Source of the DNA: Sympetrum striolatum
Taxonomy: Eukaryota; Arthropoda; Insecta; Odonata; Libellulidae
Reading direction: 5' to 3'
Assembly: GCA_947579665.1 (NCBI GenBank)
Contig: OX388349.1
Coordinates: 24,832,459 to 24,896,458 of the forward strand
Length of the DNA stretch: 64,000 bases
Shown here: positions 3,906-62,601 of the stretch, in pieces
Layout: each line of letters begins with the position of its first letter
Position numbering within the stretch: position 1 is the first letter of the stretch
Notes under the pieces: model-generated
Told to the model about the DNA's origin: nothing
Database searches by the model: none
What the model saw: the letters and a program-made list of their open reading frames with translations, nothing else
Position numbers and translations under genes: made by a program

Positions 3906-3923
3906 GCCCCACGTTGGGCGCCA
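3906..3923 (-). other. Gypsy-1 primer-binding site (tRNA-Lys)
   Basis: On the minus strand this reads TGGCGCCCAACGTGGGGC. These 18 bases are complementary to the 3' end of tRNA-Lys(CUU) including CCA, as I know that tRNA. It lies 5 bases inside the LTR end, where minus-strand cDNA priming is expected. Confidence 0.85.
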
Positions 3924-3928
3924 GATTC

Positions 3929-6235: not shown

Positions 6236-6296
6236 GAAGGAAACAAAAGCGAAAGGAAAGGGCGGAGTAAACAAGCCGGAGGCGCAAAACGTCACA
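6236..6296 (-). repeat. 61-bp Gypsy-1 LTR start fragment
   Basis: This is the same sequence as the first 61 bases of the Gypsy-1 LTR (4550-4490), at the same junction with the REL ORF2 end. It then switches to copy X at a short GC microhomology. It implies a local duplication after Gypsy-1 inserted. Confidence 0.8.
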
Positions 6297-11393: not shown

Positions 11394-11808
11394 TTTATTT
11401 TAAACTCATAATCAATATACAAGATATTTGCAGGTCTCTGCAGTTTAGAGCCTTGCGGCGCAACCCCATATACCGTAAACGGCTGGGTGCGGTTGAATTT
11501 AAGCACTGTTCCCCATCAGCCTTTTTTTTAATTATTTACAAGTTTCATTTATTTACAAAATTTTACTATTTGCGGCTGATTTAAAGCTAGGATCATGCGG
11601 CCCGTTTGTTTGGGTCCGCATACAATGGGGATACAGTGAAAAAGGAATTTTAAAATAATTTTCATTGACATAGATATGGTTATTCATACAGTATATAATT
11701 TCCCTGGCCTTACAATAATTAAAATTTTTCATTTATACAACGACAATTCCCTATGGCCAGGGTGCAAGATTTTCTGGATTATTCTCATTATTTCCATTGT
11801 CAATTTAT

Positions 11809-15910: not shown

Positions 15911-17222
15911 CGCTTCGAAAATTGCTATATCCCGCCTTTTTCCTTTTGGCGGGAGAATGGGGAATCGGGGGTCAGGTGCGACGATCGAGGTCTTTCGAGC
16001 GCCCGTATGGCCGTAAACGGACGTTTCGGAGTGCGCTCTTAATTCCCCTTTCGCCGACCAAAATTAAACCTCTTGGGCTATCCGCGAGAGTGAAGCTCTA
16101 CGACGGATAGTTTAGTCACGGCCCGGAAAAACGAGAGGTGCAATATGCGTTTAAACCTCCGGCAATTCAATGCCTATGGGCCGCAACTTGCCCGGGCTCG
16201 AGTGAGGCTCGACGCCGTGCTGCCCCGACGGCAGGTGATGCCCGTTGACCCGTCTAGGACCGGTTAGGCCGGCCTAAAAAAGGGCGGGAAATTGTGCGAC
16301 CGTTACGAGTGACGCATAACGGCCGCAGCTCCGGAGTCGACACCCGGCTGAAGGCGAGGTTGTCGGAATTGCGCGACGGAGGCCCCAATGGGCCTTTCGT
16401 CCAGGTCGAGCGCGGCACCCTATAAAGAAGGGAGGAGCAGAAGCTCGGCTCTATGAAGCGGGGAGTTAAGCTCCTCGGCCGCTTCTACGCAATTCGCTGG
16501 GTGCCGAGACGCGGCATTGCCAGTGCAAGGGGGAGCGGGGGTTTGGAAGTGTGGAGTGACGCTCCACAAAGCACTTCCGTCGCTGGTTGGGGCCTAGGGG
16601 CTTGCCAACCACCGAATTTCAGACGGAAATTCGGTCAACTAACTGAACCCGCGATTACTTCCCCCTCGTGAGAGGGGTTTTCAAGACACCGGCAGTTCAG
16701 CGCAAGGCGACAATTCCTATTCTGCCGGAATCCCTTTTCCCGGGCTCAAATCCGTACTACCTCTTTTAAAAAGAGGGTTCCTAGGAGCGCCGATAGAGGG
16801 ACACAAGCAGAAAGGACAAAGGCATGCAAGGGGAAACAAGAGAAAGGGCACCGAACAATATACTTACTTAAACGGCAAACAGGAACCTACGATCGACCTA
16901 GACCCTACAACTAAGACCAAAGTGCTTATAGAATATATACAATATATTTGCAGGTCTCTGCAGGAAGAGCCTTGCGGCGCAACCCCATACACCGTAAACG
17001 GCGGGGAGCGTTGAAGCTACATGTTGTTCCCCTCAGCCTTTTCTTTAAATATTTACAAGTTATTTACAACAGAATTGAAATTAATGGCTGATTTAAAAAA
17101 ACTAGAGTCATGCGGCCCGTTTGTTTGGGCCACATACAAAGAAAGGGGATACAACATACAAAAAATGAATTTAAGGTAAGAGCATTTCACATTAATTAAT
17201 TATGTACAATATTTATATAAAT

Positions 17223-17285
17223 ACCCTGGCCTTACAATAATAATATATATACATTTATACAATGGCAAATTCCTATGGCCAGGGT
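17223..17285 (-). other. 3' UTR hairpin of M-C
   Basis: ACCCTGGCC (17223-17231) pairs with GGCCAGGGT (17277-17285) across an AT-rich loop. The same 9-bp stem, with changes, is in M-B (near 11703/11756), P-D (60177/60229) and the fragment at 46013/46067. A 3' UTR structure recognised by the RT is expected for target-primed elements. Confidence 0.65.
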
Positions 17286-17319
17286 GCAAGATCTTATTTT
17301 CATTAATTGTCTTTTGTTT

Positions 17320-20300
17320 TCATAGGTCCTCCGCGGGATGCCGGGCTAGGGGGTCTTCCTCCGGTTCACCGTCTGCTCCGGTCCTTGCTGTGGCGACCTG
17401 GTACTGCCGCACCCCGGTGATGTGCTCAACGTAGATGTCTCTGGACCATCTCACGGCGGCGGAGATCATCTTCCGTTGGAGCCCGGGGATGCGGCTCTTC
17501 TGGATCCGGAGTCGGCGGAGGAGGGCGTCGTTGGCGGCATCCCAGGTCCCGAGGGCGCCTACTACCAGGGCGTCGAGGTGGACGTCCGCTCCCTGGTTCC
17601 GCTCCCGAAGTCCCTCTGCAGCGGCGGCGTACTTCTGCAGCTTGGCAGCCCTCGCCGCATCCAGGGCCTCCTGGCGGTTTTCGAAGGGCACCGTGACGTC
17701 GATTATGTGGAAGGGGCCGTCCGGGCTCTCCGACGCCACGATGTCCGGCCGCAGGAGGGATGGGTCCCCTCGGATGCGGCGGTCCTGCCGCACCGTCCAG
17801 GTCCTCGGGAGGGCCTCCACCAGGAGCTCTTGGATGGCGTTGTGCCTCCGGGTCCACGCCGCGGAGTGAGTGGCGCAATGGTTTAGGACGTGCGGGAGCG
17901 TCTCCTCCTTGGTCCCGCAGCGCCTACACCGCGTATCCCCTCTCGCTGCTCCGCGGCGCGCGGCGTTCAATGGTAGGACGTTGAGCCGCGCCCGGTGCAC
18001 AAACCGCCAGTCACAGAAGCGGGTGTGGTTCCCGCTCTGTACAAAATGGGAGCTCGCTGGATGACGGGAGGCCGCGTGGAGGACCTTCCCCTGATCGGGC
18101 TTCTGTACGAGGTTCCGGCGCCACTGCTCTTCGACTGCACCCCTGATGAGGGTGCAGACTTGGTGCCGGTGCGTCGACGGGATACGGAGGACTTCTGCGG
18201 TGGGAGTGGGGTTGGTGATGAGGATCCCCAGACAGTGGTCACCCTCACTCCACTCCCACTGCGGCCCGCACCATCTTTGGAGGGAGCGGGTGGCGCGCCG
18301 CGCCCGCGACCAGAGGGAGGTGGCGTCGCCCACATCCGCTCCGAGGCGTCCTTCCATCGACCCCGAGAGATATGCGACAAGAGTCGCATTATTGGGTGCG
18401 GGGGCGTCTCGTCCTGTCTTTCGGTGGACTGTGTCACGCAGTGCGTTCCATGCCAGGTCTTTTGTGAAAGGGTCCCGGCACGTCAGCATCCGGAAGGCCT
18501 GCGTGACACAGAGGACGTCTTTCAGGATCGACGGCGGGAAGAATCCGGCTCCTCCTAGGCGAGGCGGCAGGTGGCACATCTCGCGGCTTCCTCTCTGCGG
18601 GATGGCGAGGAATTCCCTTGCGGCGGCTGCGAGGCTCTTCTCGAGCGTGGCGAGTTCCTTCTTCGGGAAGTCCGCGATCCGGAGGTGGAAGTCCAGGCGC
18701 GAGAGCAGGAAGACTCGGACCGCATCCAATTTCTGCCACGGAGCCAGTTGGCTTCCGCGCACTGCGGCCAAATCTCGGAGAAATGCGGCCAGAACCTCCT
18801 GTGGTGCCTCTCGCACCTTCCACCCCCTCGGAGCCCCCAGGTATTTGTAGGACTCGCCCTGCTCCAGCGCTCTCATTGTTCCTCCTTGGACTTGGAAGGT
18901 CGTGCCCCGCACGATGCGCCTGCTCGCGGTGTGGGCGAGGTGCAGACTTGCGCACTTCCGGGGTTTGAAGCGCAGGCCGCTCCACGATGCTGCCGCGCTG
19001 ACGGCGTGGAGTAGAATGTCCAGCGCACCTGCGCTTCGTCCAAGGAGGACCAGGTCGTCTGCATACGCCAATATGCAGACGGATGTGCCGCCGAAGGAGT
19101 AGCCCGCCGTCGTCCTTCGGGCGAGTGCCGATCGCAGGATTGGTTCGATGGCCAGGTTGAAGAGGAGGGGGGAGAGTGGGTCTCCTTGCCGCACCCCCTT
19201 GAGGATCGCAATCTCCTTCGTCGTGCCCTCGGACGCCTCGACTCTGGTTGTGACTCCCGCGTACATGTGCTGTATCAGTCTCACCAGGGTATTCGGCATC
19301 GCCATCTCGGACAGCACCCTGGTGAGATGATGGTGCGGGAGTGAGCCGAAGGCGTCGGCCAAGTCAAGCCACGCGACGGCGATCTCCTTCCCGCTTCTTC
19401 TCGCGTCTTCGAGGGCCGCATTGAGCACAAAGTTGTGCTCAAAGCACCCCTCCGCACCCGGAACGAAACCTTTCTGGAACGGGAAGGAGATGCGGTGGCC
19501 CCTCATCGCCCACTCGTGGATGCGGTCGGCGATGAGTCCCGAGAATGTTTTCCCCAAGGTGGATTGTAGGGCAATCGGCATCCAGTTGCTGACGTCCTCC
19601 TCCTCTCCCCCCTTGTGGAGCAGGATGGTGCGGCTCCTCTTCCATCCTGCGGGAATTTTTTCCTGGGCCAAGCAGATATTAAAGGCCGCCGCCATGATCC
19701 GTCCATCCGGGTCAATCCTCTTCCATGCCCGGTATGGAATGCCGTCTGGGCCCGGGGCGGTGTTGCTGGTGCGGGCGAGGCGGTCGAGTACTTCCGCGGG
19801 GGAGATGTCCCGCAGGAGCCGCTCCTCTTCTCCCTCGATCCGCGTTATGGTCGTCTCCGGGATGGTGGAAGGTGCGGGGCCGTCGTTGATGTGTGGCGGC
19901 GGGCACGAGAAGTGCGCTTCCAGCGCGGCGAGTGGTACGGGGCAGTCCGGGGAGGGGGCCTCCGTGATGCTTTTGAGGCCCTCCTCTTGTCCACTCGGTA
20001 GGTGGTCTGCAGCTCCTTAGCCGCGGGTCTGCTGATGGCCTTCCGCCGTCGTGGAGCCGTGGATCTGGGCTTGGCCCGGACGGCGGAAGCCGCGGCTGCA
20101 GTAAATTCCTCAATGATCCGCTCCATTTCCTCCCATTCCCCGTCTTGAAGGATACCCAGCCGGATTTCCCACACCATCTGTTCCTCCGTGGGCTCCGCAA
20201 TCGGGACGGTGCGTGGTGGCCTTCTCCTAGTGATGGAGGCTTCCGGGATGGCCATTGTGGTGCGGTCGCTGGCGGTCCGTGGTGCTCCGATCCTCCTATT

Positions 20301-20366
20301 TACACGAGCCACCACTTCCCGTGCTCCCACACCATGCGGCATTCGGGCCTCTGGTCCCTGCTCCAC
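17320..20366 (-). pseudogene. M-C ORF2: RT-REL replicase with one frameshift
   Basis: ORF2 starts at 20366 (MEQGPEARMPHGVG) and runs to about 19976. A one-base deletion in the FKSITEAPSPDC region shifts the frame there. The remaining RT, CCHC and REL part reads open from there to 17320, ending ARHPAEDL. RT motifs (AYADDLVLLG), the CCHC knuckle and the PD...D nuclease residues are all present. A single indel therefore separates it from an intact gene of about 1015 codons. Confidence 0.85.
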
Positions 20367-21441
20367 GCCGTTCGGGCCCTCCTCGGCGGGAGCGGCTCGG
20401 GGTGCGGGTCCTCGGCGGGTTGTTGATGGGGTGGCGGCTGCTGCGGGGGATTTCTTCTCCTCCGGGGCTGCTGGTTGGTCCGGTGGTGCGGGTGCGGCGG
20501 TTGGCGTGCCGGCCGCCTCTGAGGTTGGTTCCTTTGTGGGTGGGTGGGAGCGCGGTACCCGCCTTCCCAGGGCCGGGCGCCGTATAATGGCGGCGGTTGC
20601 CTGCCATTACCGTGGTGCCGAAAATGGTGCAGCATGTGTTGGGGCGGCGGTGGTGGTGGTGGTGGCGGAAGCGGGGGCCAAGGTCCCCGTCCATGATCCG
20701 GCCATCGGATGCCGGGTGGCGGGCGTCTTCTTTGGGGGCCTGGATGCGGCCAGGGCCTGGGTGCGGCCGTGGGTAGTTGCGGCGTGGTCCTTCCCTCCTT
20801 TGCCATCCTTCCTGTCGTGGTGGTGGTGGTGGATGCCTTGGATTCATCCTTGGTGGGTGCTGGGGGTGTGGCGCTTGGTGCCGCTCCCTCTTCTCCCTTC
20901 GCATCCTGTTTTTCCGCGACTCCACTGTTTTCCACGGCTCTTCCCTGGGTGCGGGGCGTTGTTCAATGACCTCCCTTCTCCGTTCTGGTGGTGGCGCCAT
21001 CACCGCGGCCGGTTCCCTAACTCCCCGGGCGATTTGAGTTTCGCGCCGGCGGTCGCGGTGATTTTGAACGGAGGTGGGCGGCTGTGGAGGCGGTTTTTTG
21101 ATTCTTTGCTCCATGGTCATCCAGTGGAGCGGCGTTTGGGTGCCGGCCGTTCGCAGGAGGGTGTATTCCTCCGTTTTTGGAGGAGCGCTGCTCGTCCTTG
21201 TCCTCCTTCCTGGTCGGAGCGCGTGGGACTCGCGTCCGAGGCGGGCTGCCGCTCGCCGGGCTTCGGGGGAGACGGCGGGTGCGGGGATCGTTGTGGCGGC
21301 GTCGAAGAGGGCCGCGATCCAGGCGTCCACGTTCATCACCTCCTCTGTGCTCGTGGACGCAACGGCCTCCCGCCGCATGGCAACAGATGCTCGGGTTTGC
21401 CTCCGCGGCTCGGGGTTTGAATTAGCCCCGAATTTCGGCAT
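20296..21441 (-). pseudogene. M-C ORF1: Pro/Arg-rich protein, frameshifted
   Basis: The ATG at 21441 (MPKFGANSNPEPRRQ) matches the start in P-D. The conserved N-terminal block and GTQTPLHWM motif are present. Near 20760, where a short GC-rich segment is duplicated, the frame changes, so the proline-rich end with RMVWEHGKWWLV is read in another frame (20300 to about 20760). The ORF can be read upstream to 21690, but that part lies in the 5' UTR region. Confidence 0.65.
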
Positions 21442-22446
21442 TTCTGTATCGCGCCTTCCGGTTTTTGGCGGGAAAGTGGGGATTCGGGGGTCAGGTGCGA
21501 CGATCGGAAAATTTCGAGCGCCCGTATGGCCGTAAACGGACGTTTCGGAGTGCGCTCTCGATTCCCCTTTCGCCGACCAGAAGTTACCTTTTGGGCTATC
21601 CGCGAGAGTGAAGCTCTGCGACGGATAGTTTAGTTGCGGCCCGGAAAAAACGAGAGGTGCAAATATGCGTTTCAACCTCCGGCAATTCAATGCCTATGGG
21701 CCGTAACTTGCCCGGGCTCGAGTGAGGCTCGACGCCGTGCTGCCCCGACGGCAGGTGATGCCCGTTGACCCGTCTAGGACCGGTTAGGCCGGCCTAAAAA
21801 AGGGCGGGAAATTGTGCGACCGTTACGAATGACGCATAACGGCCGCAGCTCCGGAGTCGACACCCGGCTGAAGGCGAGGTTGTCGGAATTGCGCGACGGA
21901 GGCCCCAACGGGCCTTTCGTCCAGGTCGAGCGCGGCACCCTATAAAGAAGGGAGGAGCAGAAGCTCGGCTCTATGAAGCGGGGAGTTAGGCTCCTCGGCC
22001 GCTTCTACGCAATTCGCTGGGTGCCGAGACGCGGCATTGCCAGTGCAAGGGGGAGCGGGGGTTTGGAAGTGTGGAGTGACGCTCCACAAAGCACTTCCGT
22101 CGCTGGTTGGGGCCTTAGGGGCTTGCCAACCACCGAATTTCAGACGGAAATTCGGTCAACTAACTGAACCCGCGATTACTTCCCCCTCGTGAGAGGGGTT
22201 TTCAAGACACCGGCAGTTCAGCGCAAGGCGACAATTCCTATTCTGCCGGAATCCCTTTTCCCGGGCTCAAATCCGTACTACCTCTTTTAAAAAGAGGGTT
22301 CCTAGGAGCGCCGATAGAGGGACACAAGCAGAAAGGACAAAGGCATGCAAGGGGAAACAAGAGAAAGGGCACCGAACAATATACTTACTTAAACGGCAAA
22401 CAGGAACCTACGATCGACCTAGACCCTACAACTAAGACCAAAGTAC
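21442..22446 (-). promoter_or_regulatory. M-C structured 5' UTR
   Basis: This has the same roughly 1-kb leader as in M-A and M-B. The U2-complementary segment is 22422-22446. On the opposite strand a CCCTATAAAG motif precedes a 64-codon ORF (21973-22167) in the minus-strand copies only. Confidence 0.6.
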
Positions 22447-22676
22447 TTTACTTTAAATACTTTTCAAAATACATTTCAAGTATAAATATAAATATAAATA
22501 TAAAATTCAAAATAAATAGCCTTGTGGCGGTACAGACACAGATTTTAAATAAATAAATAAATACGTATAATAAAAAAAACTTCGTAAAAGGAGAGATAGT
22601 AAAAATGTTCAAGTCTAAAAAGTTCTTCCTAGGGGGGCTAAGACACTGCCCCCCATCACTCTCACTTGACACATTC
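22447..22676 (-). mobile_element. Utopia-like element, severely 5'-truncated (3' UTR only)
   Basis: This is about 230 bp matching the end of the longer copy at roughly 54829-55082, including a run of six G, a short loop and six C, and CGCCACAAGGCTAT. It starts immediately after U2 nt 35 and ends at the 5' end of M-C. It contains no coding sequence. Confidence 0.8.
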
Positions 22677-22711
22677 ACACTTTGATCTTAGCCATAAGGC
22701 CGAGAAGCGAT
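22677..22711 (-). ncRNA. U2 snRNA gene, first 35 nt only (interrupted)
   Basis: On the minus strand this reads ATCGCTTCTCGGCC followed by TTATGGCTAAGATC and AAAGTGT, the 5' end of insect U2 snRNA. After nt 35 it changes to retrotransposon sequence, and the remaining part of U2 is not found in the window. The cut lies in the GUAGUA branch-point-recognition segment, so this gene cannot make working U2. Confidence 0.9.
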
Positions 22712-45984: not shown

Positions 45985-46526
45985 ATAAAGAATATTTACA
46001 AGTTATATAATTTCCCTGGCATTACATTGTTATTGGCTTATATTTACACAATTGCAAGTACCACTGGCCAGGGTGCAAAAAGATCATTTCAATATTATTT
46101 CATTTTGTTAGTCCTCTTCCATGGGATGCCTTGCGAGCGGGTCCTCCTCCGGTTCTCCGTCGTTTCCGGTCCTCGTTGTGATGGGCTGGTAATGCCACAC
46201 CCCAGTGATGTGCTCGACGTTGATGTCCCGCGACTATATGACTGCCACGGAGACCATCTTTCTCTGGAGCCAGGGGTTGCGGCGCTTTGGGATCCGGAGT
46301 CGGCGGAGAAGGGCGTCGTTAGCGGCATCCCAGGATCCCAGCGCTCCCACCACAAGGGCGTCGAGGTGGACGTCGGTGGACCCATGGTGCCGCTCCCTGA
46401 GTCGCTCTACGAAGGCCGCGTACTTGTCCCTCTTGGCCGCTCTCGCCGCATCAAGGGCCTCCTGGTGGTTTTCGAACGGCACCGTGACGTCCACGATGTT
46501 GAAGGGGCCGTCCAATCTCTCCGACG
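45985..46526 (-). pseudogene. REL element fragment F, C-terminal nuclease end
   Basis: This 3' part of a diverged tandem-family copy covers the nuclease segment after the PD motif (FNIVDVTVPFENHQEALD), VGALGSWDAANDALLRRL and the C-terminal EEDPLARHPMEED, with a stop at the SRDI segment. It then has a 3' UTR with the CCTGGC/GCCAGG stem near 46013/46067. It is the downstream half of the copy split by the Transib-like element. The upstream half is at 49083-50175. Confidence 0.8.
46522..46526. repeat. Transib target-site duplication, left
   Basis: CGACG, repeated at 49083-49087. Removing the insertion restores the REL sequence CTCCGACGCC seen in other copies. Confidence 0.88.
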
Positions 46527-46580
46527 CACAGTGTGATATTTTCGTAATCTAGAAGGACAAAAGTCAATTTTCTTACTTGT
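46527..46580 (+). repeat. Transib-like inverted repeat, left
   Basis: CACAGTG (46527-46533), a 23-bp spacer, then ACAAAAGTC (46557-46565): heptamer, spacer and nonamer arranged as in a 23-type recombination signal. Confidence 0.85.
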
Positions 46581-46986
46581 ATACGCGGATCAAGCGCATT
46601 TTGGAAAATATATTAATTTCTTGAGTTATTAACTGGAATTGAGTCTTGGAATGCGAGTGATATGTTTACATGAAGCATAAACACCACCACACGCAAAGAA
46701 GACACAGGCCCAAAGAGATAAAGCGCAAACGGTGACGGCCGCTAACGGCCGAGTTAGCAAAGAGAGGGATATGAGGTTATTTAAATCTCAGGAAGGAAAG
46801 TGTTAAGATATCTTTTAACATATTTTTATTATAAATAATAACAATTCAATATGATCGATGATCAATGTGCAATAAAATAGGTACAGTAAAACATAATATT
46901 GGTAAGTAATAATTTGTAATCACAAAACAAATTGAAAGGAAAAATAAGGAATTAATTTTATACAACATATAATATGAATTAGAGGA

Positions 46987-47640
46987 TTATTCGGAATCAA
47001 CATCAGATTCTTCGATATCACTTTCTGATTCTTCGGAATCAGAAAAACCTGATAGGGTTCCGTCCTGATCCATTAGAGCTGGAGCTCTCATCTCTAAGAG
47101 GTCATATACCTCCCTACTGATTTTGCCTCGTTTGGTTTTAGGAATTGATCCTATGCTTGCTATAAATGGGTCTGAAGTCAAGAGTAATCTATTTATTAAA
47201 TCTTTGCTCTACCTCTGTCTTAATGACATTCGCAGTTTCTTTGGCAAACCCGAACTTTGTGGGACGATAATATCTTGTGGAGGATGGGGAAGGGTTTTGC
47301 CAAAGAATATTTTTAATTTTTTGGTCAGTCACTGAGAATATCTGAATAGGCACCATCGATCCACTAAATAAACTTTCGTCTGAGCGATTTACACAAGAAA
47401 ATCTCTGTTTGTATCTACTTTGTTCTGCCCCATCACAACCCCACTTCACAATTATGTCAAGAGTTTTCAATTCTCCTATGGACCTCTTCTTGCGCTTTGC
47501 ACAATCGCCTTATGGTGTGGTCCATTAAAGATTGTAATTTTATTTCTGCAAAGGTTTCTGTAGCATTGACGTCACTCGGATAGCACAGCTGTTTTGCTGC
47601 TTTAATATTATAATATGCTGGATTCATGTTCTTATATTAT
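46987..47640 (-). pseudogene. Transib-like transposase remnant
   Basis: Three frames on the minus strand join into one Transib-like segment. First MNPAYYNIKAAKQLCYPSDV and LQSLMDHTI (about 47625-47510). Then KRKKRSIGELKTLDIIVKWG and CDGAEQSRYKQRF, with the presumed first catalytic Asp in WGCDG, and SLFSGSMVPI and LWQNPSPSSTRYYRPTKF (47480-47189). Last DPFIASIGSIPKTKRGKIS with an acidic tail ending at 46987. A frameshift separates each pair and a stop (TAG) lies near 47189. The rest of the roughly 650-residue transposase is absent. Assignment is from the WGCDG and SSTRY.RP blocks shared by Transib and RAG1 cores. Confidence 0.75.
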
Positions 47641-49028
47641 TTGTTAGTTTGTTGTCGGATTACATTGTGTTGATGTCTTGACAGATTCGCATCAAACATC
47701 AAAGCAAGCGCTTGGTCTGAGCATTTTTCTGGCGGTTACACGTTATGGCCAATACGTCGAAAAAATTTTAAGTCTATGACGCTTGTGATTTAGCCTGTGA
47801 ATGTATCCTCTCTATCTATCTACCTATATACATGAATGAATCCGGAGAAGCATCTATATATAATAGATAGTAACAAAGAGCCACGCAATGAATACATTTG
47901 AATAATTTTTTAAGTTGATACCCCTACTATGTGAACTTATTTGGCTGGATATAATTATGGAAATGTTAATTAATGTCAGCTTGTTGAAATACAATTTATG
48001 TTCCTCAAATTTAGCCTAATAAAAAACATTTTTAGATAACACTTCTTTTGGCTGGTAGCGCTGATAAGGATTGATTTTACGATTTTGAAAGTATTACTAA
48101 TTGTTTGTCATTATCGGAAACCACTAAATTGAAAGTGTCATAAAAAAATCGAAAATATTTTGACTTTTTTCCGAAAGGAGTGAAATTAATTTTTATTATT
48201 TTCCGATAGATGGCATTTATAACATAGTGTAATTTTGCTAAATAAAATCAAAATAATAAATCCTCTACTACATATTCCAAAAGTATGAAACTGTTAGGTT
48301 GATTCTTAATAGGAAAACGTATCAATTATGTAAGTTACTGCAATTTCGGTACATATTTACACATTTTATTTAATTAATAATAAATGGAAAATAATATTTC
48401 GCTAAAAAAGCTATATTCACTTTCTTAAAGAATCATTTATGAACTTTTATAAATTGAATCAGTTGATTTATCGTTGAAAGCGTTTTTAAAAATTCAGATA
48501 ATTTTGGGATCATATTTACCCCTGATGCGACTAATTAATGTTTAAGGAAAGTATATTCAAATTCGCAAATATGCGCAAGCAAATTTAAGTATTTACTATA
48601 CTTAAAAAGTCATTCTTTCAGGCAAATACCATTTCACATTGGTATAATGCGATATAATAAACTAAAACTCAAGTTCAAACTGACTCATACGTTTTTCTCA
48701 TACGGAAAAAACGGCGATCAATTCTAATGATGCTCGTGATTAAATTAAAACACATATTAAAGTAAAATATTATGTAAACTAACTTTGGTACTTGTATTAT
48801 AATAATAGCAAAAACAACGGCTACTATCACACAGAAACACTGTGTATTCTTAAAGTAAACTTATACAAATGACGCTATCGCTTAGAACACTTGACATGCT
48901 GAGTTCAGATTGTCAGCGGGTTCGACCCTTTTTTCTATCGGTTGGCGCGGTTTTTATGAAATATAAACCTTAGATCCAGTTAGTATGGTTTGTTCTCTTC
49001 CTAACTATGCAAAAATTTGACCCGATTC

Positions 49029-49082
49029 ACAAGTAAGAAAATTGACTTTTGTCCCTCTAGATTACGAAAATATCACACTGTG
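49029..49082 (-). repeat. Transib-like inverted repeat, right
   Basis: Read inward it gives CACAGTG, a 23-bp spacer and ACAAAAGTC, identical in layout to the left end. Confidence 0.85.
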
Positions 49083-50175
49083 CGACGCCGCGATGTCCGG
49101 TCGCAGTAGTGATAGGTCCCTTCGGCGGTCCTTCCGCACCATCCAGTCTCTCGGGAGGGCTTTGGTGAGGAGTTGCTGGATGTCGTTGTGCCTCCTGGTC
49201 CACGCCATGGAGTGGGTGGTGCAGTGGTTGAGGACGTGCGGCAGCGTCTCCTCTGCGGTCCCACAGCATCTGCACCGCGTGTACCCTCTCGCCGCTCCTC
49301 GGCGCGCGGCAGTCAACGGGAGGACCTTGAGCCGCGCCCGGTGCACGAAGCATTCTCCTCCATTTTTCCTCGACAGTTCCCCTGATCAGGGTGCAAATTT
49401 GGTGTCGGTGCGTGGCTGGTATCCGGAGGACTTCCATCGTTGGGGTGGGGTTGGTGATAAGGACACCCAAGCTGTGGTCGCCCTCGCTCCACTCCCACTT
49501 GAGCCCGCACCATTTCTGCAGGTATCGGGGCTCGCCGTTTCCGACACCACACGGAGGCTGTGTCGCCCGCATCCTCCCCGAGTCCTCCCTCCATGGACCC
49601 CGAAAGGTATGCGACCAAGGCTGCGTTGTTGGGTGCGGGGGCATCGCGGCCCCTCTTCCGGTGCACCATGTCACGCAGGCTATTCCATGCCAGGTCCTTG
49701 GTAAATGGGTACCGGCAGGTCAGCATTTGGAATGCCTGCGTGATGCACAAGACGTCCTTCAGGGTCAACGGCGGGAACAGTCCGGCTCCTCCCATTCTTG
49801 GCGGCAGGAGTCAAATCTCGCGGCTGCCCCTCGGAGGGATATCGAGAAATTCGCGGGCCACTTCCGCGAGGCTCCTCTCGAGCGCGGCGAGTTCTTTCTT
49901 CGGGAAGTCCGCAATTCGGAGATGGAAGTACAGTCGCGAGAGGAGGAAGACTCGGACCGCATCTAGTTTCTGCCATGGGGCAAGTTGGCTTCCGCGGACG
50001 GCGGCCAAGTCCCACAGAAATGCGGTCAGTACTTCCTGGGGGAACTCTTGGACTCCACCCCTTTGGTGCTCCTAGGTATTTATAAGGCTCTCTGTTAGCG
50101 CCCTCATGGTTCCTCCTTGTCCTTCAAATAGCGTAGTTCGGATGATACGCCTGCTCCGTGTGCCCGAGGTGGAGG
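49083..50175 (-). pseudogene. REL element fragment F, RT end to nuclease
   Basis: This upstream half of the copy split by the Transib-like element is 5'-truncated at about 50175 against a Tc1-like fragment. It contains post-RT sequence (GSQLAPWQKLDAVRVFLLS, DFPKKELAALERSLAE, GRDAPAPNNAALVAYLSGS), a CCHC knuckle region (CRCCGTAEETLPHVLNHC) and the start of the REL nuclease (LLRPDIAAS). Several frameshifts and stops are present. The RT active site is absent. Confidence 0.8.
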
Positions 50176-50999: not shown

Positions 51000-52090
51000 G
51001 AGCTTATAGATATGGTCAAGAACTACAGAAAACTTAAATGACTTCTAATGAGAACCTCCTGTGTTCGATGCTAGGATGATGCAAAAATCCCATATTTAAA
51101 ATACATGGGGATGGTTTTTCATTATCTTTCTTGATGCACTTTTCAGAATGTTAGGAAGTTCTCGCTCCGCTAGAAGATATATATTAAGAATCTGTTTAAG
51201 AAAAAAAATTACATAAGACCATGCTGTTCCTGGGTTCGATGCCGGAGCACATTAACATTACTCTCATAAGGAATATATGGGAAACGTAGGACATCGTTTG
51301 AGGCAATTGCAGCCAATATTTTTGCCTGAATTTTCACACATAGTTAAAGATGGTGATCTACTGTTAGGCTGCATAGCAAGTATCACCAGAAAGACCCGGG
51401 TTTGAAGCCAGGTGGTAAATATATCCCCAAATTAAAATACATTGAGGTAGTTTTCATTATTTATTTTGATGTACTTATCGATATAAAATGAGGTTCTTGC
51501 TTTGCTAGAAGATGTATATTAAGACTTGGCTTCAGAAAAACAACTGGATAAGACCATGCTGTTCCTGGGTTCGATGCCAGAGCACAATAACTATTCTCTC
51601 ATAAGGAATATAAGGGAAAAGGAGGACGTCGTTTGAGGCAGTTGCAGCCAATATTTATGTTTGAATTTTCTCACATAGTTAATAATGGTGATCCTCTATT
51701 GTATTGCATAAGAAGTATCACCAGAAAGGACCGGGTTCGATGCCGGGCGGTAAATATATCTCCCACATATAACACATTGGGGTAGTTTTTCATTAATTTT
51801 TTATGCACTTATCGAAATGATAGAAAGTTCGTGCTTGCCTAGAAGATGTATGGTAAGAATTCGTTTAAGAAAAAAATTTAGATAAGACCATGCTGATCCT
51901 GGGTTTGTTGCCAGAGCAAATAACCATTTCTCACATAAGGAATATATGTGAAAAGTAGGACGTCGTTTGAGGCAGTTGCAGCCAATATTTCTGCTTGAAT
52001 TTTCACTCATAGTTAGAGATGGTGATCTTCTGTTGTGCTGCATAGTAACTTCGCAAGGAAGACCGGGGTTCGATGCCAGACGATTAAATT
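51000..52090 (+). repeat. Tandem array of about 168/335-bp units with B-box-like motifs
   Basis: Motifs like GGTTCGATGCC occur near 51062, 51232, 51399, 51568, 51733, 51901 and 52068, i.e. every 165-170 bases. Alternate units are more alike (CATGCTGTTCCTGGGTTCG type versus AGTATCACCAGAAAG type), giving a period of about 335 bases. No A box or cloverleaf could be built, so these are not called tRNA genes. Confidence 0.75.
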
Positions 52091-53466: not shown

Positions 53467-53501
53467 ATCGCTTCTCGGCCTTATGGCTAAGATCAAAGTG
53501 T
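53467..53501 (+). ncRNA. U2 snRNA gene, first 35 nt only (interrupted)
   Basis: The first 35 nt of U2 (ATCGCTTCTCGGCC through GATCAAAGTGT) are followed directly by a Utopia-like element. The breakpoint is identical to that at 22677. The remainder of U2 is not in the window. Confidence 0.9.
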
Positions 53502-54591
53502 CGTCAGAAGAGTTGCCTGGACGAGGTTGCGTGAGGTAGTGAGGAGGAAGCTGAGAAGGTACCCGACGGAGGAGGACTGCGCAAGGTACCTGTCCGGAGT
53601 CAGCACCGAGGACTTCGGACAGCAGTCCTCCGACTTCTCCTCGCTCTTCACGCAGGTCCGCGGGGCATCCCGGCGCCTCAAGAAGACCATCAACTTGGGG
53701 TGGCGCTGGTCGACCGCGTTGGGGGAGCTACAACTCGTGCTGGACCAAGGAGAAGAAGAGGTCAGGGTCCCTCCGGGAGCGATTCCATTCCTGGAGCGGA
53801 CCCTTAAGAACGCCGCCAGGAAGGCCTACCTTCGGAAACTCCTGGCCAAGCCTGACCAGGGGAAGGCCTTCCTGGCATCCAGCAGCTCTCCCGCCTCCAA
53901 CCACTTCACAGCTGGAGGCCGGTACACGAGATTCTGCGACTGGAGGTTCGTGTACCGGGCGCGGCTCGACGTGCTGCCCCTGAATGCCTGTCGCCGTTGG
54001 GAAGGAGGTGGCGACAGGCGGTGCCGGCGATGCGGACATGGGGATGAGACCTTGCCCCATGTCCTGAACCACTGCAAGGTTCACTCGCGGGCCTGGCAAC
54101 TCAGACACGACGGGATCCTGGAAAGAATAGCCACCGCCATCCGTGGACGCCGTGGGAAGGAGCAGGACGTGCTGAGGGTAAATCAGACCGTTCCCGGGTA
54201 CCCTCAGCCCATCCGACCGGATCTCCTGCTCACCACCACGGGACCAGACGGTGTGGGGAAGTCCACGAAGATCGTCGATGTGACCGTCGCTTTCGAGAAC
54301 ACCAGGGAGGCCCTTGGGGAGGCGCGGCGAAGGAAGGAGGAGAAGTACGCCGCGCTGAGCCAGCATTTCCGAGAGCAGGGTCTCCACTCCTCGGTGGAAG
54401 CTATTGTCGTCGGGAGCCTGGGCTCCTGGGACCCCAAGAACGACGCCGTCCTCAGGGGTCTGGGTATTTCCCGGCGATATTCCACCACCATGAGGAGACT
54501 GGTGGTCTCACACGCCATCCGATGGTCACGGGACATCTACGTGGAGCACGTCACCGGGCATCGGCAGTACGAAGACGGAAATGAGCAGTAG
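53502..54591 (+). pseudogene. Utopia-like replicase, CCHC and REL endonuclease part
   Basis: The frame is open from the U2 junction, so the element's own start and RT are missing. The remainder reads KPDQGKAFL, RYTRFCDWRFVYRARLDVLP, the knuckle CRRCGHGDETLPHVLNHC (C-x2-C-x8-H-x4-C) and the nuclease RPDLLLTT, then KIVDVTVAFENTREALGEAR, ending IRWSRDIYVEHVTGHRQY. The REL domain nicks the target for priming. The same block order as in the tandem family shows common ancestry, with clear divergence. No stop is seen inside the fragment. It cannot replicate alone. Confidence 0.82.
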
Positions 54592-54766
54592 CGGCAGTGT
54601 CCCCCCCTCTATCCCCCTTTCTTTCTTTTCTTCTTCTTTCTTCTTCTATCTTTCTTCAAATTTATTCCTGCGCCGAGAGGTGATTTTACTATTTTAATAC
54701 TGTGTGTGTTTTTTATATTGAAATAATAAACAATTTTATGAGCGTTTATTCTTTTACCTTGTGGTG

Positions 54767-54797
54767 TCGGTGGGGCCAGTGTATAAGGCCCCACCGA
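54767..54797 (+). other. Utopia-like 3' UTR hairpin
   Basis: TCGGTGGGGCC pairs perfectly over 11 bp with GGCCCCACCGA across a 9-base loop. A second hairpin (six G against six C) lies near 54855-54878. These are candidates for the structure bound by the RT. Confidence 0.65.
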
Positions 54798-55082
54798 AGA
54801 CATTTATACTATTTTTAACGGATTTTAAATTAATGTTTCGAGTGAGAGTGATGGGGGGCAGTGTTCTGAGCCCCCCTAGGAAGAACTTTTTAGACTTGAA
54901 CATTTTTTATTTCTCTCTCCTTTTACGAAGTTTTTATTATACGTATTTATATATTTATTTATTTAAAATCTGTTTTTGTACCGCCACAAGGCTATCTATT
55001 TTGAATTTTATATTTATATTTATCTGATGAACTTGAAATGTATTTTGAAAAATATTTAAAATAAACGCTTTAAATCTGTAAA

Positions 55083-55107
55083 GTACTTTGGTCTTAGTTG
55101 TAGGGTC
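55083..55107 (+). promoter_or_regulatory. U2-complementary segment at P-D 5' end
   Basis: This starts GTACTTTGGTCTTAG and continues TTGTAGGGTC. Read as RNA it can pair with U2 nt 35 down to 11 without a break, using 17 Watson-Crick and 8 G-U pairs. Counterparts are 61594-61618, 22422-22446, 16901-16925 and 11369-11393. A function is inference. Confidence 0.6.
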
Positions 55108-56103
55108 TAGATCGGTCTTTAGGTTCCTGTTTGCCGTTTTAGTAAGTATATATATATAGTATATTGTTCGGTGACCTTTCTCTTGTATTCCCCTTGCATG
55201 CCTTTGTCCTATCTGCTTGTGTCCCTCTATCGGCGCTCCTAGGAACCCTCTTTTTAAAAGAGGTAGTACGGATTTGAGCCCGGGAAAAGGGATTCCGGCA
55301 GAATAGGAATAGTCGCTTTGCGCTGAACTGCCGGTGTCTTGAAAACCCCTCTCACGAGGGGGAAGTAATCGCGGGTTCAGTTAGTTGATCGTATTTCCCT
55401 CTGAAATTCGGTGGTTGGCAAGCCCCTAAGGCCCCAACCTGCGACGGAAGTGCTTTGTGGAGCGTCACTCCACACTTCCAAACCCCCGCTCCCCCTTGCA
55501 CTGGCAATGCCGCGTCTCGGCACCCAGCGAATTGCGTAGAAGCGGCCGAGGAGCCTAAACTCCCCGCTTCACAGAGCCGAGCTTCTGCTCCTCCCTTCCT
55601 TATAGGGTGCCGCGCTCGACTTGGACGAAAGGCCCATTGGGGCCTCCGTCGCGCAATTCCGACAACCTCGCCTTCAGCCGGGTGTCGACTCCGGAGCCGC
55701 GGCCGTTATGCGTCACTCGTAACGGTCGCACAATTTCCCGCCTTTTTTAGGCCGGCCTAACCGGTCCTAGACGGGTCAACGGGCATCACCTGCCGTCGGG
55801 GCAGCACGGCGTCGAGCCTCACTCGAGCCCGGGCAAGTTGCGGCCCATAGGCATTTAATTGCAAGAGGTTGAAACGCATATTTGCACCTCTCGTTTTTTC
55901 CGGGCCGCAACTAAACTATCCGTCGCAGAGCTTCACTCTCGCGGATAGCCCAAAAAGGTAACTTCTGGTCGGCGAAAGGGGAATTGAGAGCGCACTCCGA
56001 AACGTCCGTTTACGGCCATACGGGCGCTCGAAATTTTCCGATCGTCGCACCTGACCCCCGAATCCCCACTTTCCCGCCAAATACCGGAAGGCGCGATACA
56101 GAA
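55108..56103 (+). promoter_or_regulatory. P-D structured 5' UTR
   Basis: Strong hairpins include 55446-55479 (GGAAGTG...CACTTCC with an inner GTGGAG/CTCCAC), 55703-55725 (CCGTTA/TAACGG) and 55916-55948 (CTATCCG/CGGATAG). All recur in the other copies. A sense frame at 55455-55760 is present in P-E too but has no recognisable protein features. Confidence 0.6.
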
Positions 56104-57257
56104 ATGCCAAAAATCGGGGCTAATTTTAACCCCGAGCCACGGAGGCAAACCCGGGCATCTGTTGCCATGCGGCGGGAGGCCGTAGCGTCCACGAGCACAG
56201 AGGAGGTGATGAACGTGGACGCCTGGATCGCGGCCCTCTTCGACGCCGCCACAACGATCCCCGCACCCGCCGTCTCCCCCGAAGCCCGGCGAGTGGCAGC
56301 CCGCCTTGGCAGGGAAACATTCACCCAAAAGCGTAAGGTGAAGAGACCAAGAAGCGCGCCCCCCAAGGCAGAAGTCTTTACCATACTGAGAAATGCGGGC
56401 ACCCAAACGCCGCTACATTGGCTGACGACGGAGCAAAGACTACGAAAACCACCTCCACAACCTCCCGCCCACGTTCAAAATCACCGCGACCGCCGGCGCG
56501 AAATTCAAATCGCCCGGGGAGTTAAAGAACCGGCCGCGGCGATGGCGCCACCTCCAGAACGGAGAAGGGAGGTAATTGAACAACGCCCCGCGCCCAGGGA
56601 AGAGCCGTGGAAAACAGTGGAGTCGAGAAAAAACAGGATACGAAGGGAGAAAAGGGAGCGGCACCAAGCGCCACACCCCCGGCACCCACCAAGGATGAAT
56701 CAAAGGCATCCACCACCACCACCACGACAGGAAGGATGGCAAAGGAGGGAAAGACCGCGCCGCAACAACCCACTGCCGCACCCAGGCCTGGCCGCACCCA
56801 GGCCCTGGCCGCACACAGGCCCCCAAAGAAGACGCCCGCCACCCGGCATCCGATGGCCGGATCATGGACGGGGACCTTGGCCCCCGCTTCCGCCACCACC
56901 ACCACCACCGCCGCCCCAACACATGCTGCACCATTGGCGGCACTACGGGAATGGCAGACAACCGCCACCATTATACGGCGCCCGGCCCTGGGAAGGCGGG
57001 TACCGCGCTCCCACCCACCCACAGAGGAACCAACCGCAGAGGCGGCCGGCGCGCCAACCGCCGCACCCGCACCACCGGACCAACCAGCAGCCCCGGAGGA
57101 GAGGAAATCCCCCGCAGCAGCCGCCACCCCATCAACAACCCGCCTAGGACCCGCACTCCGAGCCGCTCCCGCCGAGGAGAGCCCGAACGGCGTGGAGCAG
57201 GGACCAGAGGCCGAATGCCGCATGGTGTGGGAGAACGGGAAGTGGTGGCTCCTGTAA
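56104..57257 (+). pseudogene. P-D ORF1: Pro/Arg-rich protein, broken
   Basis: It begins MPKIGANFNPEPRRQ, with the SPEARR.AARLGRE block, a GTQTPLHWLT motif and a long basic proline-rich part with a poly-proline run. A G-to-T change gives TAG at 57145-57147. A one-base deletion near 57211 then shifts the last motif (RMVWENGKWWLL, ending 57257) out of frame. About 346 of an expected 380 residues would be made. Confidence 0.7.
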
Positions 57258-60141
57258 CCAGGAGTGTTGGAGCACCACGCACCACCGGCGACCGCACCGC
57301 GATGATCATGACAGAATCCTCCATCGCGAGGCGACGGGCGCCGCGTACCATCCCCACCGTCGAGCCAACAGACGAACAGATGGTGTGGGAGATTAGAATC
57401 GGGATCCTTCAGCACCACGAGTGGGACGAGATGGAACGCATCACCGCAGAAATAACGTCTTCCGCGGCAACGGCGGTCCGCGCAAAACCCCGATCTGCGG
57501 CACCGCGAAGGAGAAAAACAATACAGCGGACTACGCCCGCGGACATCCAGCGGACGTATCGAATCGACAAAGGGAGGGCCTTCAAAATGATCACGGAAGC
57601 CCCCTCCCCGGACTGCCCCGTGCGCCTCACAGACCTGGAGGCACACTTCTCCTGTCCACCGCCGCAGATCAACGGAGGCCCCGCACCATCTACAGTACCG
57701 GACATGACAATCCTCCGATCCGAAGGAGAAGAAGAACGACTTATGCGGAACATCTCCTCCGCAGAAGTAATGGAACGGCTGCTCCGAAGCAGCAACACCG
57801 CCCCGGGCCCGGACGGCATCCCATACCGGGCGTGGAAGAAGATCGACCCAGACGGCCGCATCTTGGCCGCAATTTTTAATACCTGCATGACACACGAAAG
57901 GATCCCGGCGGAGTGGAGGAGCAGCCGAACGGTGCTGCTCCACAAGGGGGGAGCGGAAGAAGAAATCGGGAACTGGAGGCCTATCGCGCTGCAGTCCACC
58001 CTCGGGAAGACCTTCTCGGGGATTCTCGCCGATCGGATCCACGAATGGGCGATGAGGGGAGGCCGCATCTCCTTCCCTTTCCAGAAGGGCTTCATTCCCG
58101 GAACAGAGGGATGCTTTGAGAGTAACTTCCTTCTCAACGCCGATCTGGAGGATGCAAGACGGAACGGGAAGGAGATTGCAATCGCCTGGTTGGATCTCGC
58201 AGACGCCTTAGGCTCCCTACCACACCAACACCTCATCCGGATCCTGACCGAGATGGCAATGCCGAATGCGTTGGTAAGGTTGATCCAACAAATGTACAAA
58301 GGGGTCACCACCAGGATTGAGGATGCGGAAGGAACCTCAAGGGAGATCCCGATCTACAAGGGGGTGCGGCAGGGGGACCCGCTCTCCCCCCTCCTCTTCA
58401 ATCTCGCCATCGAGCCAATAATACGCTCGGTGCTAGCCCAACGGACGACGGCGGGATACTCCTTCGGTGGCTCCTCGATCTGCATTTTGGCATATGCAGA
58501 CGATCTGGTTCTCCTTGGACGAAGCGCAGGCGCGCTCAACATTCTACTCCACGCCGTCAGCGCGGCAGCCTCTTGGAGCGGTCTGCGCTTCCAGCCCCGC
58601 AAATGCGCAAGTCTGCATCTCGCACACACGGCGAGCAGACGCATCGTGCGGGCCACCAACTTCGAAGTCCAAGGAGGAACAATAAGAGCACTTGAACAAG
58701 GCGAGCCCTATAAATACCTTGGGGCTCCGAAGGGGTGGAAGATCCGAGAGGCACCACAGGAAGTCCTGGCCGCATTTCTGCGGGACCTAGCAGCCGTCCG
58801 CGGGAGCCAGCTTGCCCCGTGGCAAAAACTAGATGCGGTCCGGGTCTTCCTGCTCTCGCGTCTGGACTTCCACCTCCGGATCGCGGATTTCCCCAAAAAA
58901 GAACTCGCCACGCTCGAGAGGAGCCTCGCAGCCGCCGCACGGGAATTCCTCGCCATCCCGCAGAGAGGAAGCCGCGAGATGTGCCACCTGCCGCCTCGCC
59001 TAGGAGGAGCCGGATTCTTCCCGCCGTCGATCCTCAAAGACGTCCTCTGTGTCACGCAGGCCTTCCGGATGCTGACGTGCCGGGACCCATTCACAAAAGA
59101 CCTGGCATGGAACGCACTGCGTGACACAGTCCACCGCAAGACAGGACGTGGTCACGGGCGCGGCGTGCCACCCGCTCCCTCCAAAGATGGTGCGGGCCGC
59201 AGTGGGAGTGGAGTGAGGGTGACCACTGTCTGGGGATCCTCATCACCAACCCCACTCCCACCGCAGAAGTCCTCCGGAACCCGTCGACGCACCGGCACCA
59301 AGTCTGCACGCTCATCAGGGGTGCAGTCGAAGAGCAGTGGCGCCGGAACCTCGTCCAGAAGCCCGATCAGGGGAAGGTCTTCCATGCGGACTCCCGTCAG
59401 CCAGCGAGCTCCCACTTCGTACAGAGCGGGAACCACACCCGCTTCTGCGACTGGCGGTTTGTGCACCGGGCGCGGCTCAACATCCTCCCGTTGAACGCCG
59501 CGCGCCGCGGAGCGGCGAGAGGGGACACGCGGTGCAGGCGCTGCGGGACCAAGGAGGAGACGCTACCGCACGTCCTCAACCACTGCGCCACCCACTCCGC
59601 GGCGTGGACCCGGAGGCACAACGCCATTCAAGAGCTCCTGGTCGAGGCCCTCCCGAAGACTTGGACGATACGGCAGGACCGCCGCATCCGAGGGGACCCA
59701 TCCCTCCTGCGGCCGGACATCGTGGCGTCGGAGAGCCCGGACGGCCCCCTCCACATCGTAGACGTCACGGTGCCCTTTGACAACCGCCAGGAGGCCCTGG
59801 ATGCGGCGAGAGCAGCCTAGCTGCAGAAATACGCCGCCGCTGCAGAGGGACTTCGGGAGCGGAACCAGGGAACGGACGTCCACCTCGACGCCCTGGTGGT
59901 AGGCGCCCTCGGGACCTGGGATGCCGCCAATGACGCCCTCCTCCGCCGACTCCGGATCCATAAGAGCCGCATTCCCGGGCTTCAACGGAAGATGGTCTCC
60001 GCCGCCGCGAGATGGTCCAGAGACATCTACGTTGAGCACATCACCGGGGTGCGGCAGTACCAGGTCACCACCGTAAGGACCGGAGCAGACGGTGAACCGG
60101 AGGATAACCCCCTAGCCCGGCATCCCGCGGAGGACCAATGA
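57215..60141 (+). pseudogene. P-D ORF2: RT-REL replicase, broken
   Basis: From ATG 57215 (MPHGVGEREVV) the RT is intact, with GPDGIPYRAW, WLDLADALGSLPH (Phe to Leu change after Ala), GVRQGDPLSPLLFN and AYADDLVLLG. At about 59148, after VHRKTGR, roughly 100 bases are missing compared with M-A and the frame shifts. The CCHC and REL part reads in another frame from about 59461 (TRCRRCGTKEETLP, RPDIVASES, HIVDVTV). A TAG at 59818-59820 interrupts it before it runs to 60141. The copy cannot supply a working replicase. Confidence 0.82.
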
Positions 60142-60176
60142 AAAACAAAGGACAATTTATGAAAATCAGATCTTGC

Positions 60177-60237
60177 ACCCTGGCCATAGTAATTTGCTAT
60201 TGTATAAATACATATATTATTATTGTAAGGCCAGGGT
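60177..60237 (+). other. P-D 3' UTR hairpin
   Basis: ACCCTGGCC (60177-60185) and GGCCAGGGT (60229-60237) form the family's 9-bp stem. Confidence 0.6.
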
Positions 60238-60445
60238 ATTTATATAAATATTGTACATAATTAATTACTGTGAAATGCTTTTATCTTAAATTCAATTTTT
60301 TGTATGTTGTATCCCCTTTTTTACTTTCTCCATATACGAAGTATAGAGAAAGTATTATTTTCATGAAAAAAATCGACTTCGAGATTTCAACGGAAATATA
60401 TGTTTTGGGGTCCCTAGAACACGTTTTGACCATTTTCGGAATGAT

Positions 60446-60451
60446 GTCTGT

Positions 60452-60527
<76 letters not shown>
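60446..60527 (+). repeat. (TG)n microsatellite
   Basis: About 80 bases of TG with one early interruption, inside the unclassified insertion. Confidence 0.95.
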
Positions 60528-60529
60528 CA

Positions 60530-61165
60530 GTGGGCGCTCTAACGTGAAAACTATTAGTCGTATCAATACCAAAATTCATATATAGTACTGTGGTGTGTGC
60601 TGTCAGAGTTGATTAGTTTTTGGAGTAAATCGGTAAACCGGAAGTTGAGCTTCATTCATCAAAGCTCATTTCCGGTTTTCAAAATATCTCCATAAATATG
60701 ATATATAGGTAAATTGTATACCTCATAAAAGTTTTAGATAATGTAATTTACTATAACTTTTGTATCTAACATATTTTTGTATCACCGGTTGATTAGGAGT
60801 TATTCGTGAAATACTGATCAACCTGAAGTAGCTGATTATGTACTTTGTGGGCGCTCTAACATGAAAACCATTCATTGTATCATCACCAAATTTCATACAT
60901 AGTATTTTGGTTGGTGTTATTAGAGTTGATTAGTTTTTGGAGTAAATCGGTTAACCGAAAGTCGAGCTTTACTCTTCAAAGCTCATTTCCGTTTTTGCAA
61001 AATATCTCCATAAATATGATATTTAGGTATAAACTATTATTTATAAAAGTTTAAGAAAATGTATTATACTATGACTTTTGTATGAAACATATTTTTGTAT
61101 CACTGATTGTGTAGGAGTTATTTGTGAACTACTGATAAACCGGAAGTTGCTGATTATGTACGTTG
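60530..61165 (+). repeat. Two tandem units of about 318 bp
   Basis: Both units start GTGGGCGCTCTAAC.TGAAAAC and share GAGTTGATTAGTTTTTGGAG and CTCCATAAATATGATAT. A third start (GTGGGCGCTCT) follows at about 61166. Non-coding. Confidence 0.85.
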
Positions 61166-62601
61166 TGGGCGCTCTTGGCGCTGGGGCGAAGGGCTACTTC
61201 ATCGTTTTTCATCGAAAATGTCCCGAGAAAAATTATTTATAATTTTTGTGACGTAAAAGATAATATAAAAGAAATTAAGCACTAATCTTCCAAGTTTAGA
61301 TTGAATATAGAGTCGAAATTACTATCGTAGGTAAATATTTACATCTTATACATGGAGAAAGTCATGTGCTGGCCACATCAGATTTTTTTGTATGTGACCC
61401 AAACAAACGGGCCGCATGACTCTAGTTTTTAAATCAGCCATTTCAATTCAACCAAATGTAAATAACTAAGGAAAACAAAGGCTGAGGGGAACAACATGTA
61501 GCTTCAACGCTCCCCGTCTTTTACTGTGTATGGGGTTGCGCCGCAAGGCTCTAGTTGCAGAGACCTGCAATGAGATTGTAAAATTTCTATTAAGTACTTT
61601 GGTCTTGGTTGTAAGGTCTAGATCGGTTTTTAGGTTCCTGTTTGCCGTTTTAGTAAGTATATATTGTTCGGTGCCCTTTCTCTTGTATTCCCCTTGCATG
61701 CCTTTGTCCTATTCTTGTGTCCCTCTATCGGCGCTCCTAGGAACCCTCTTTTTAAAAGAGGTAGTATGGATTTGAGCCCGGGAAAAGGGATTCCGGCAGA
61801 ATAGGAATAGTCGCTTTGCGCTGAACTGCCGGTGTCTTGAAAACCCCTCTCACGAGGGGGAAGTAATCGCGGGTTCAGTTAGTTGATCGTATTTCCCTCT
61901 GAAATTCGGTGGTTGGCAAGCCCCTAAGGCCCCAACCTGCGACGGAAGTGCTTTGTGGAGCGTCACTCCACACTTCCAAACCCCCGCTCCCCCTTGCACT
62001 GGCAATGCCGCGTCTCGGCACCCAGCGAATTGCGTAGAAGCGGCCGAGGAGCCTAAACTCCCCGCTTCACAGAGCCGAGCTTCTGCTCCTCCCTTCCTTA
62101 TAGGGTGCCGCGCTCGACTTGGACGAAAGGCCCATTGGGGCCTCCGTCGCGCAATTCCGACAACCTCGCCTTCAGCCGGGTGTCGACTCCGGAGCTGCGG
62201 CCGTTATGCGTCACTCGTAACGGTCGCACAATTTCCCACCCTTTTTTAGGCCGGCCTAACCGGTCCTAGACGGGTCAACGGGCATCACCTGCCGTCGGGG
62301 CAGCACGGCGTCGAGCCTCACTCGAGCCCGGGCAAGTTGCGGCCCATAGGCATTTAATTGCCGGAGGTTGAAACGCATATTTGCACCTCTCGTTTTTTCC
62401 GGGCCGCAACTAAACTATCCATCGCAGAGCTTCACTCTCGCGGATAGCCCAAACAGGTAACTTCTGGTCGGCGAAAGGGGAATTGAGAGCGCACTCCGAA
62501 ACGTCCGTTTACGGCCATACGGGCGCTCGAAATTTTCCGATCGTCGCACCTGACCCCGAGCCCCTAATTTCCCGCCAAAAAACGGGATACAGAAATCGAT
62601 C

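Follow-up and report, generated by a model that had tools for sequence, protein, structure and literature searches.

The window analysed here, a stretch of 64,000 nucleotides from the dragonfly Sympetrum striolatum (C39:24.83-24.90 Mb of the 1.35-Gb assembly), lies just before an array of U2 snRNA genes and itself contains two arrays of retrotransposons. The question it raises is why the elements in these arrays begin with a segment complementary to U2 snRNA. An earlier note, which drew attention to the segment, offered three explanations: a guide that brings element RNA to U2, a carried mimic of the target site, or an old captured and inverted U2 flank.

On the plus strand, the P array is anchored in a U2 gene fragment (nt 1-35; 53467-53501). 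Next comes a Utopia copy (53502-55073) that is 5'-truncated and A2-like; its 3' end, judged by eye, is like that of insertion L015 of family A2, described below. A residue of U2 nt 39-44 (ATCTGT; 55074-55079) separates this copy from element P-D of the Utopia P clade (55083-61593), which has a foreign insert within its 3' UTR and starts with an antisense-U2 segment lying opposite U2 nt 35 to 1 (55083-55116). Element P-E, with its segment at 61594-61627, begins at 61594 and continues past the window end at 64000. The minus-strand M array is likewise anchored in a U2 gene fragment (nt 1-35; 22677-22711), so that both arrays are headed by U2 as had been claimed; a Utopia 3' UTR remnant (22447-22676), which shares 89% identity with the last part of the copy at 53502-55073, is followed by elements M-B (16926-22446; segment 22413-22446), M-C (11394-16925; segment 16892-16925) and M-D (4550-11393; segment 11360-11393), all on the minus strand. 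M-C has an ORF with RT and RLE/CCHC motifs (11809-15084). M-D is cut at about 4550 and its C-terminal sequence is repeated: the end of the element, at 4488-6290, holds two copies of Utopia C-terminal sequence spaced by 1,746 bp. The interruption (3700-4550) is an apparent LTR-type element, with what we take to be a primer-binding-site-like motif.

The elements are Utopia-type, U2-targeting LINEs. RVT_1 was found in all three window ORFs submitted to Pfam, with no other Pfam domain returned, and the proteins of family A, inserted in the neighbouring U2 array, have R2 proteins as their best PDB matches. CCHC and RPD...DVT motifs, in the forms that we assume for the C-terminal, restriction-like endonuclease region of Utopia, are present in both A and M-C (regular expression and eye), and a regular expression applied to family A only found one CCHH zinc finger, at residue 337, where Utopia has one to three N-terminal fingers. 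The U2 array is built of 1,316-bp units, the two units compared being identical, and all 46 candidate U2 matches scored lie above the cut-off. Its insertions L011-L017, a count that leaves out 61 places that include intact U2 genes, all (7/7) end in ...ATCTGTTCTTATCAG with a 3' flank from TCTG, which is nt 40 of U2 here and nt 39 of human U2. The U2 target and TCTG flank are shared with Utopia of the NeSL clade as presented by Kojima and Jurka (2015; PMC4640811), whose text also describes an ORF of R2-like type carrying zinc finger, RT, CCHC and RLE motifs, and reports tandem insertion in Nasonia. Keno, an APE-type LINE, uses the same U2 site (PMC4640811) but differs in its endonuclease. The target here is U2 and not the 28S rDNA of R2; no relatives were found in viral contigs.

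The five segments had been placed at 55083-55107, 61594-61618, 22422-22446, 16901-16925 and 11369-11393, and these coordinates are correct. With U2 read from the window, nt 11-35 pair at 25/25 positions with the segments of P-D, P-E, M-B and M-C (7-8 G-U pairs each) and at 24/25 with that of M-D. Complete pairing in P-D, M-B and M-C is therefore borne out, as is the claim that P-D departs from a perfect antisense copy by transitions yielding G-U wobbles: it has eight differences, all of them A>G or C>T. Two copies were said to have extra changes, and this holds for M-D; P-E was slightly undercounted, its two extra changes keeping the pairing.

Could a G/T-rich 5' end simply pair well with U2 by chance? 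About one in three pairs of the P core is G-U, which speaks for such a reading, but we consider it next to impossible, as it is contradicted by shuffled, window-wide and genome-wide controls, and as an independent family with antisense U2 turned up afterwards. The chance expectation for the five segment matches is 0 at up to 3 mismatches, and pairing runs of at least 14 nt with U2 1-35 occur on the two strands of the window only at the five segments and the two U2 fragments. Shuffled 5' ends, which the earlier note had considered as a possible source of equally good pairing, do not provide it: when the first 100 nt of P-D were put through 20,000 dinucleotide shuffles, the largest run was 19 and a run of 25 never arose, and the P-D duplex energy of -38.3 compares with a mean of -16.4 (sd 2.7, minimum -28.4) for 3,000 shuffles. 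Chance complementarity was rejected on these grounds, and the U2-complementary segment at the element 5' ends is confirmed as real.

Genome-wide, the first 200 nt of P-D have 16 matches, and the segment is kept in all of them. Copies starting downstream of it, which would have spoken against the earlier claim, are absent among these 16. Pairing is complete (25/25) in 10 of these P-clade 5' ends, with 24 positions paired in one and 23 in five. Scanning the 1.35 Gb with a wobble-aware antisense pattern of 24 nt gave 70 perfect matches, namely 60 in U2 sequence and 10 at P-clade 5' ends; the 12 matches with one mismatch comprise six P-clade 5' ends, a U2 gene holding a P-like element (L084), a further P-like 5' end (L085) and four places without Utopia sequence past the segment. 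The reversed pattern, used as a control, has three matches genome-wide at up to one mismatch. That the segment is inherited with the element and not remade at each insertion is supported, as is its form as an inverted U2 flank. For folding and divergence analyses 13 of the 16 copies were used, L027-L029 having the same core as L026. Folded with U2 1-38, 11 of the 13 pair as far as U2 nt 1 with 29-32 pairs and small loops, and the other two, L030 and L032, form 24-25 pairs; since the pairing extends to nt 1, the segment is about 34 nt long and not 25.

Insertions within the U2 array include those of family A (L011-L014 and L016) and family A2 (L015). They are inserted after U2 nt 59, and U2 picks up again at about nt 39-40; the resulting duplication of U2 nt 40-59 (20 bp from TCTG) is as long as the one that the text of PMC4640811 gives for reptile Utopia. 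Family A starts with GCTGGTAGGGC..., antisense U2 that runs from nt 54 to nt 1. Folded together with the U2 leader, it is predicted to form a single hairpin in which 48 pairs join leader and element across U2 nt 1-54, with UUAAU as the loop (-59.5). In A2 an insert of about 90 nt lies inside the antisense segment, with pairing retained on both its sides, and the predicted fold has 44 pairs within U2 nt 1-54. Shuffled sequences do not match A (-60.2) or A2 (-44.3) in any of 2,000 trials, the shuffled minimum for A2 being -43.0. The first 58 nt of family A are the best of 163 element windows by 26 kcal/mol, whereas in P-D and M-C the 5' end beats the next-best element window by only 2-4 kcal/mol. 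Protein identity is 39-43% between A and P and 61% between A and A2, and all of them have the segment. Across the six full-length A and A2 insertions compared in the array, U2 1-59 and 300 nt upstream are unchanged. Of 21 A/A2 matches in the genome, 18 were read, and 17 entered the counts after L081, with a gapped core, was dropped. An extra short hairpin (GTCGGC...GCCGAC, with variants) lies within the antisense segment of A2 in L015 and L070-L078. L017, an A copy in the U2 array, apparently lacks, by eye, both U2 1-59 and the A 5' end where it joins the spacer, and it seems that one change removed both hairpin halves.

The limits of the complementarity are informative. In both A and P it stops at U2 nt 1; past this point just 3-5 of 12 positions pair in the four copies tested, and complementarity reaching into the U2 promoter was rejected. 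At the other end, it begins in A 5 nt from the insertion point (nt 54 vs nt 59) and in P at U2 nt 34-35, where U2 on the insertion side is kept to nt 33 in L084 and to nt 38 in L035, while nt 39-44 precede P-D. The complementarity thus spans nt 1 to near the insertion site, and equals the leader expected in a co-transcript of U2 and element. Some copies still have sense U2 ahead of the segment: U2 10-38 in L035 (29/29), the only place in the genome with exact U2 17-38 without the following A, and U2 5-26 in L085 (22/22). The stretches of L035 and L085 have no match to the U2 promoter region, which in L084, lying in a U2 gene, is matched at 83% over 150; the two off-target copies look as if they came from reverse-transcribed U2-element RNA. 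L035, L084 and L085 each fold with their own leader (17-27 pairs). The U2 copy of L084 has changes at nt 10 and 11 with pairing still present in the predicted fold, which, in this one copy, is suggestive. A further off-target copy, L034, starts at the segment and has no U2 match nearby.

The explanation that we favour, with moderate confidence, is a selected hairpin to which the element contributes one half, the segment, and the U2 leader upstream of the insertion the other. We infer that transcription from U2 nt 1 would produce an RNA of U2 leader and element, in which the first 34-58 nt of the element are predicted to fold in the cell onto the leader as far as nt 1 (about 30 pairs in P, 48 in A). 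This hairpin would be the likely 5' module of the RNA, protecting its 5' end and masking the U2 5' domain, and a leader copied into cDNA could, by analogy with R2, anneal to the upstream U2 target and so be used in forming a precise 5' junction. The segment itself probably originated as a snap-back junction and may then have been retained by selection for RNA pairing. Pairing in cis with a co-transcribed leader would explain both ends of the complementarity. Trimming the leader would not require a ribozyme, because the insertion is just 38-59 nt away from the U2 start. An Rfam search of three 5' ends, run without a positive control, gave no ribozyme match at E up to 5. Of the earlier reading as a whole, inheritance and the form of an inverted flank have stood and the target mimic has not; cis pairing with the U2 leader was absent from its options.

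R2 elements provide a counterpart. Their RNA derives from co-transcription with the host gene, a 28S leader is retained in many of them, and cDNA of this leader has been postulated to anneal with the target, according to the text of Eickbush (2013; PMC3774820). In R2s with an HDV-like 5' ribozyme the RNA 5' end can also bring together element and upstream host sequence by pairing, as proposed here, but it does so in a P1 stem of about 7 nt within a self-cleaving fold (PMC3774820), in contrast to the simple hairpin predicted here, which takes in most of the leader. The hairpin module perhaps stands where R2 elements use a ribozyme. Another structural parallel is a laboratory design for R2: in the PRINT system, as its text describes, a stem-loop with 26 nt of 28S leader (SL-28) gives mostly precise annealed junctions (PMC11331408), and the segment here would be a natural, inherited counterpart for U2. 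The PRINT stem-loop is less efficient than the ribozyme fold, yielding few insertions unless the RNA contains a stabilising U analogue; with unmodified U it stands slightly above an unpaired leader (PMC11331408), and this low efficiency counts against the cis hairpin. So do the off-target copy L034 without U2 nearby, four pair-breaking changes shared in the A lineage, a P core almost as diverged as its flank, the narrow energetic lead of P-D and M-C and, as set out below, the 65% figure for P-A differences and the non-significant tests within single clades. In array P copies of the type seen in the window, which have no adjoining U2 leader, the hairpin cannot form in place.

The pattern of change in the segment was examined in 9 P and 10 A/A2 distinct core sequences. 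Of the changes shared by at least two distinct cores, 14 preserve pairing and 4 disrupt it, while unique changes divide 0:15 (Fisher p = 6e-6); with L084 and L085 included, the tallies are 14:5 and 2:16 (p = 1.9e-4). Both versions are given because L085 was found by a search selecting for pairing and L084 via its own U2, and both are event counts, not phylogenetic ones. Shared transitions are strand-asymmetric (14 keep pairing, 2 break it; p = 0.006), which fits pairing of the sense RNA with U2 RNA or top-strand DNA. Pairing at the cDNA level was rejected, as the same asymmetry would give C-A mismatches there, and ADAR editing alone was rejected because the shared P changes comprise four C>T and four A>G. 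Pairwise comparison of cores within P gives 221 differences, of which 150 preserve pairing; our own arithmetic from the flank transition share and site make-up would put the expected share at about 29%. Between P and A, all 90 pairs of distinct cores together show 771 differences, and at 503 of these (65%) both cores remain paired. Every distinct core has 20-24 of its 24 sites paired. When a single clade was tested on the numbers of its transition sites, no significance was reached (p = 0.10 and 0.30), and the P core is almost as diverged as its flank (0.118 vs 0.140; 13 of 16 copies). We consider that the segment is probably kept by selection for RNA pairing, G-U changes being tolerated.

How do the other explanations compare? 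That the segment is a decaying neutral relic, an inverted U2 flank caught at an ancestral snap-back junction, appears unlikely to us, even though R2-based insertion does give snap-back junctions with reverse-complemented nearby target DNA (PMC11331408), the P core diverges at nearly the pace of its flank and unique changes mostly disrupt pairing. Mere decay sits poorly with the near-complete pairing of distinct cores from families whose proteins are only 39-43% identical, with the excess of pairing-preserving differences within P, and with the different behaviour of shared and unique changes. Neither is it probable that the 5' end acts as a guide in trans, pairing with U2 snRNA, nascent U2 RNA or sense DNA and so bringing the RNP to its target. 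Full pairing in 10 of the 16 P copies and the direction of change would fit such a role, and array copies without a U2 leader nevertheless keep the segment; a trans guide does not, however, account for a complementarity that in every family sets in close to the site where that family inserts and runs out at nt 1, and the folded U2 snRNP would hide part of the U2 5' region concerned. An RNA-guided LINE, whose antisense 5' end would hybridise to nascent U2 RNA or the opened sense strand beside the cut site, strikes us as distinctly doubtful.

A carried target mimic, in which the segment directs new copies to land just 5' of old ones, is very improbable. It draws on the head-to-tail arrangement with segments at the joints, and on the P joints of the window, which have no U2 residue except ahead of P-D. 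Yet the segment is antisense to the target and not sense, off-target L034 retains it too, and the joints of A and A2 contain the genuine site: among the 5' ends L070-L081, U2 nt 40-59 directly precedes the element in 11 of 12 (eight identical, three with 1-2 differences), with a recognisable Utopia 3' end upstream in 9 of those 11. Since U2 sequence is retained upstream of old copies, new copies can insert there and a mimic is unneeded for building arrays; it was rejected for this reason.

For site-specific LINEs other than R2 it is, to our knowledge, an open question how the RNA comes by a 5' end that is defined and protected, and how the 5' junction is made precisely. In the cis hairpin, a target-specific retrotransposon may have a novel means of drawing on its host gene for the front part of its RNA. 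If it is correct, Utopia takes a host-gene leader as half of its RNA structure, a U2 start so near the insertion makes a ribozyme unnecessary, and the segment is a natural counterpart to an engineered template module tried for gene insertion. It would also make a direct prediction for every Utopia family, all data here coming from one genome. The main text of PMC4640811, taken apart from its figures and supplements, gives no description of an antisense leader or hairpin, and the words inverted, complementar-, hairpin and ribozyme are absent from it. Among the matches listed in a literature search, with subscription journals, figures and supplements outside its scope, no title or abstract opening mentions a segment of this kind.

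Several smaller features accompany the arrays. The insert in the P-D 3' UTR (60340-61380) has a (GT)n run, and similar sequence is apparently present, by eye, in the U2-array spacer insertion L010. Diverged Utopia fragments, mostly 76-83% identical, lie on the minus strand at 45993-50174, and a repeat of about 335 bp occurs in three tandem copies at 51116-52084, ahead of the P array. Finally, GTAAGTATA is found at 55142-55150 in P-D and at the equivalent place of all 16 P-clade 5' ends, and resembles a U1-type 5' splice site.
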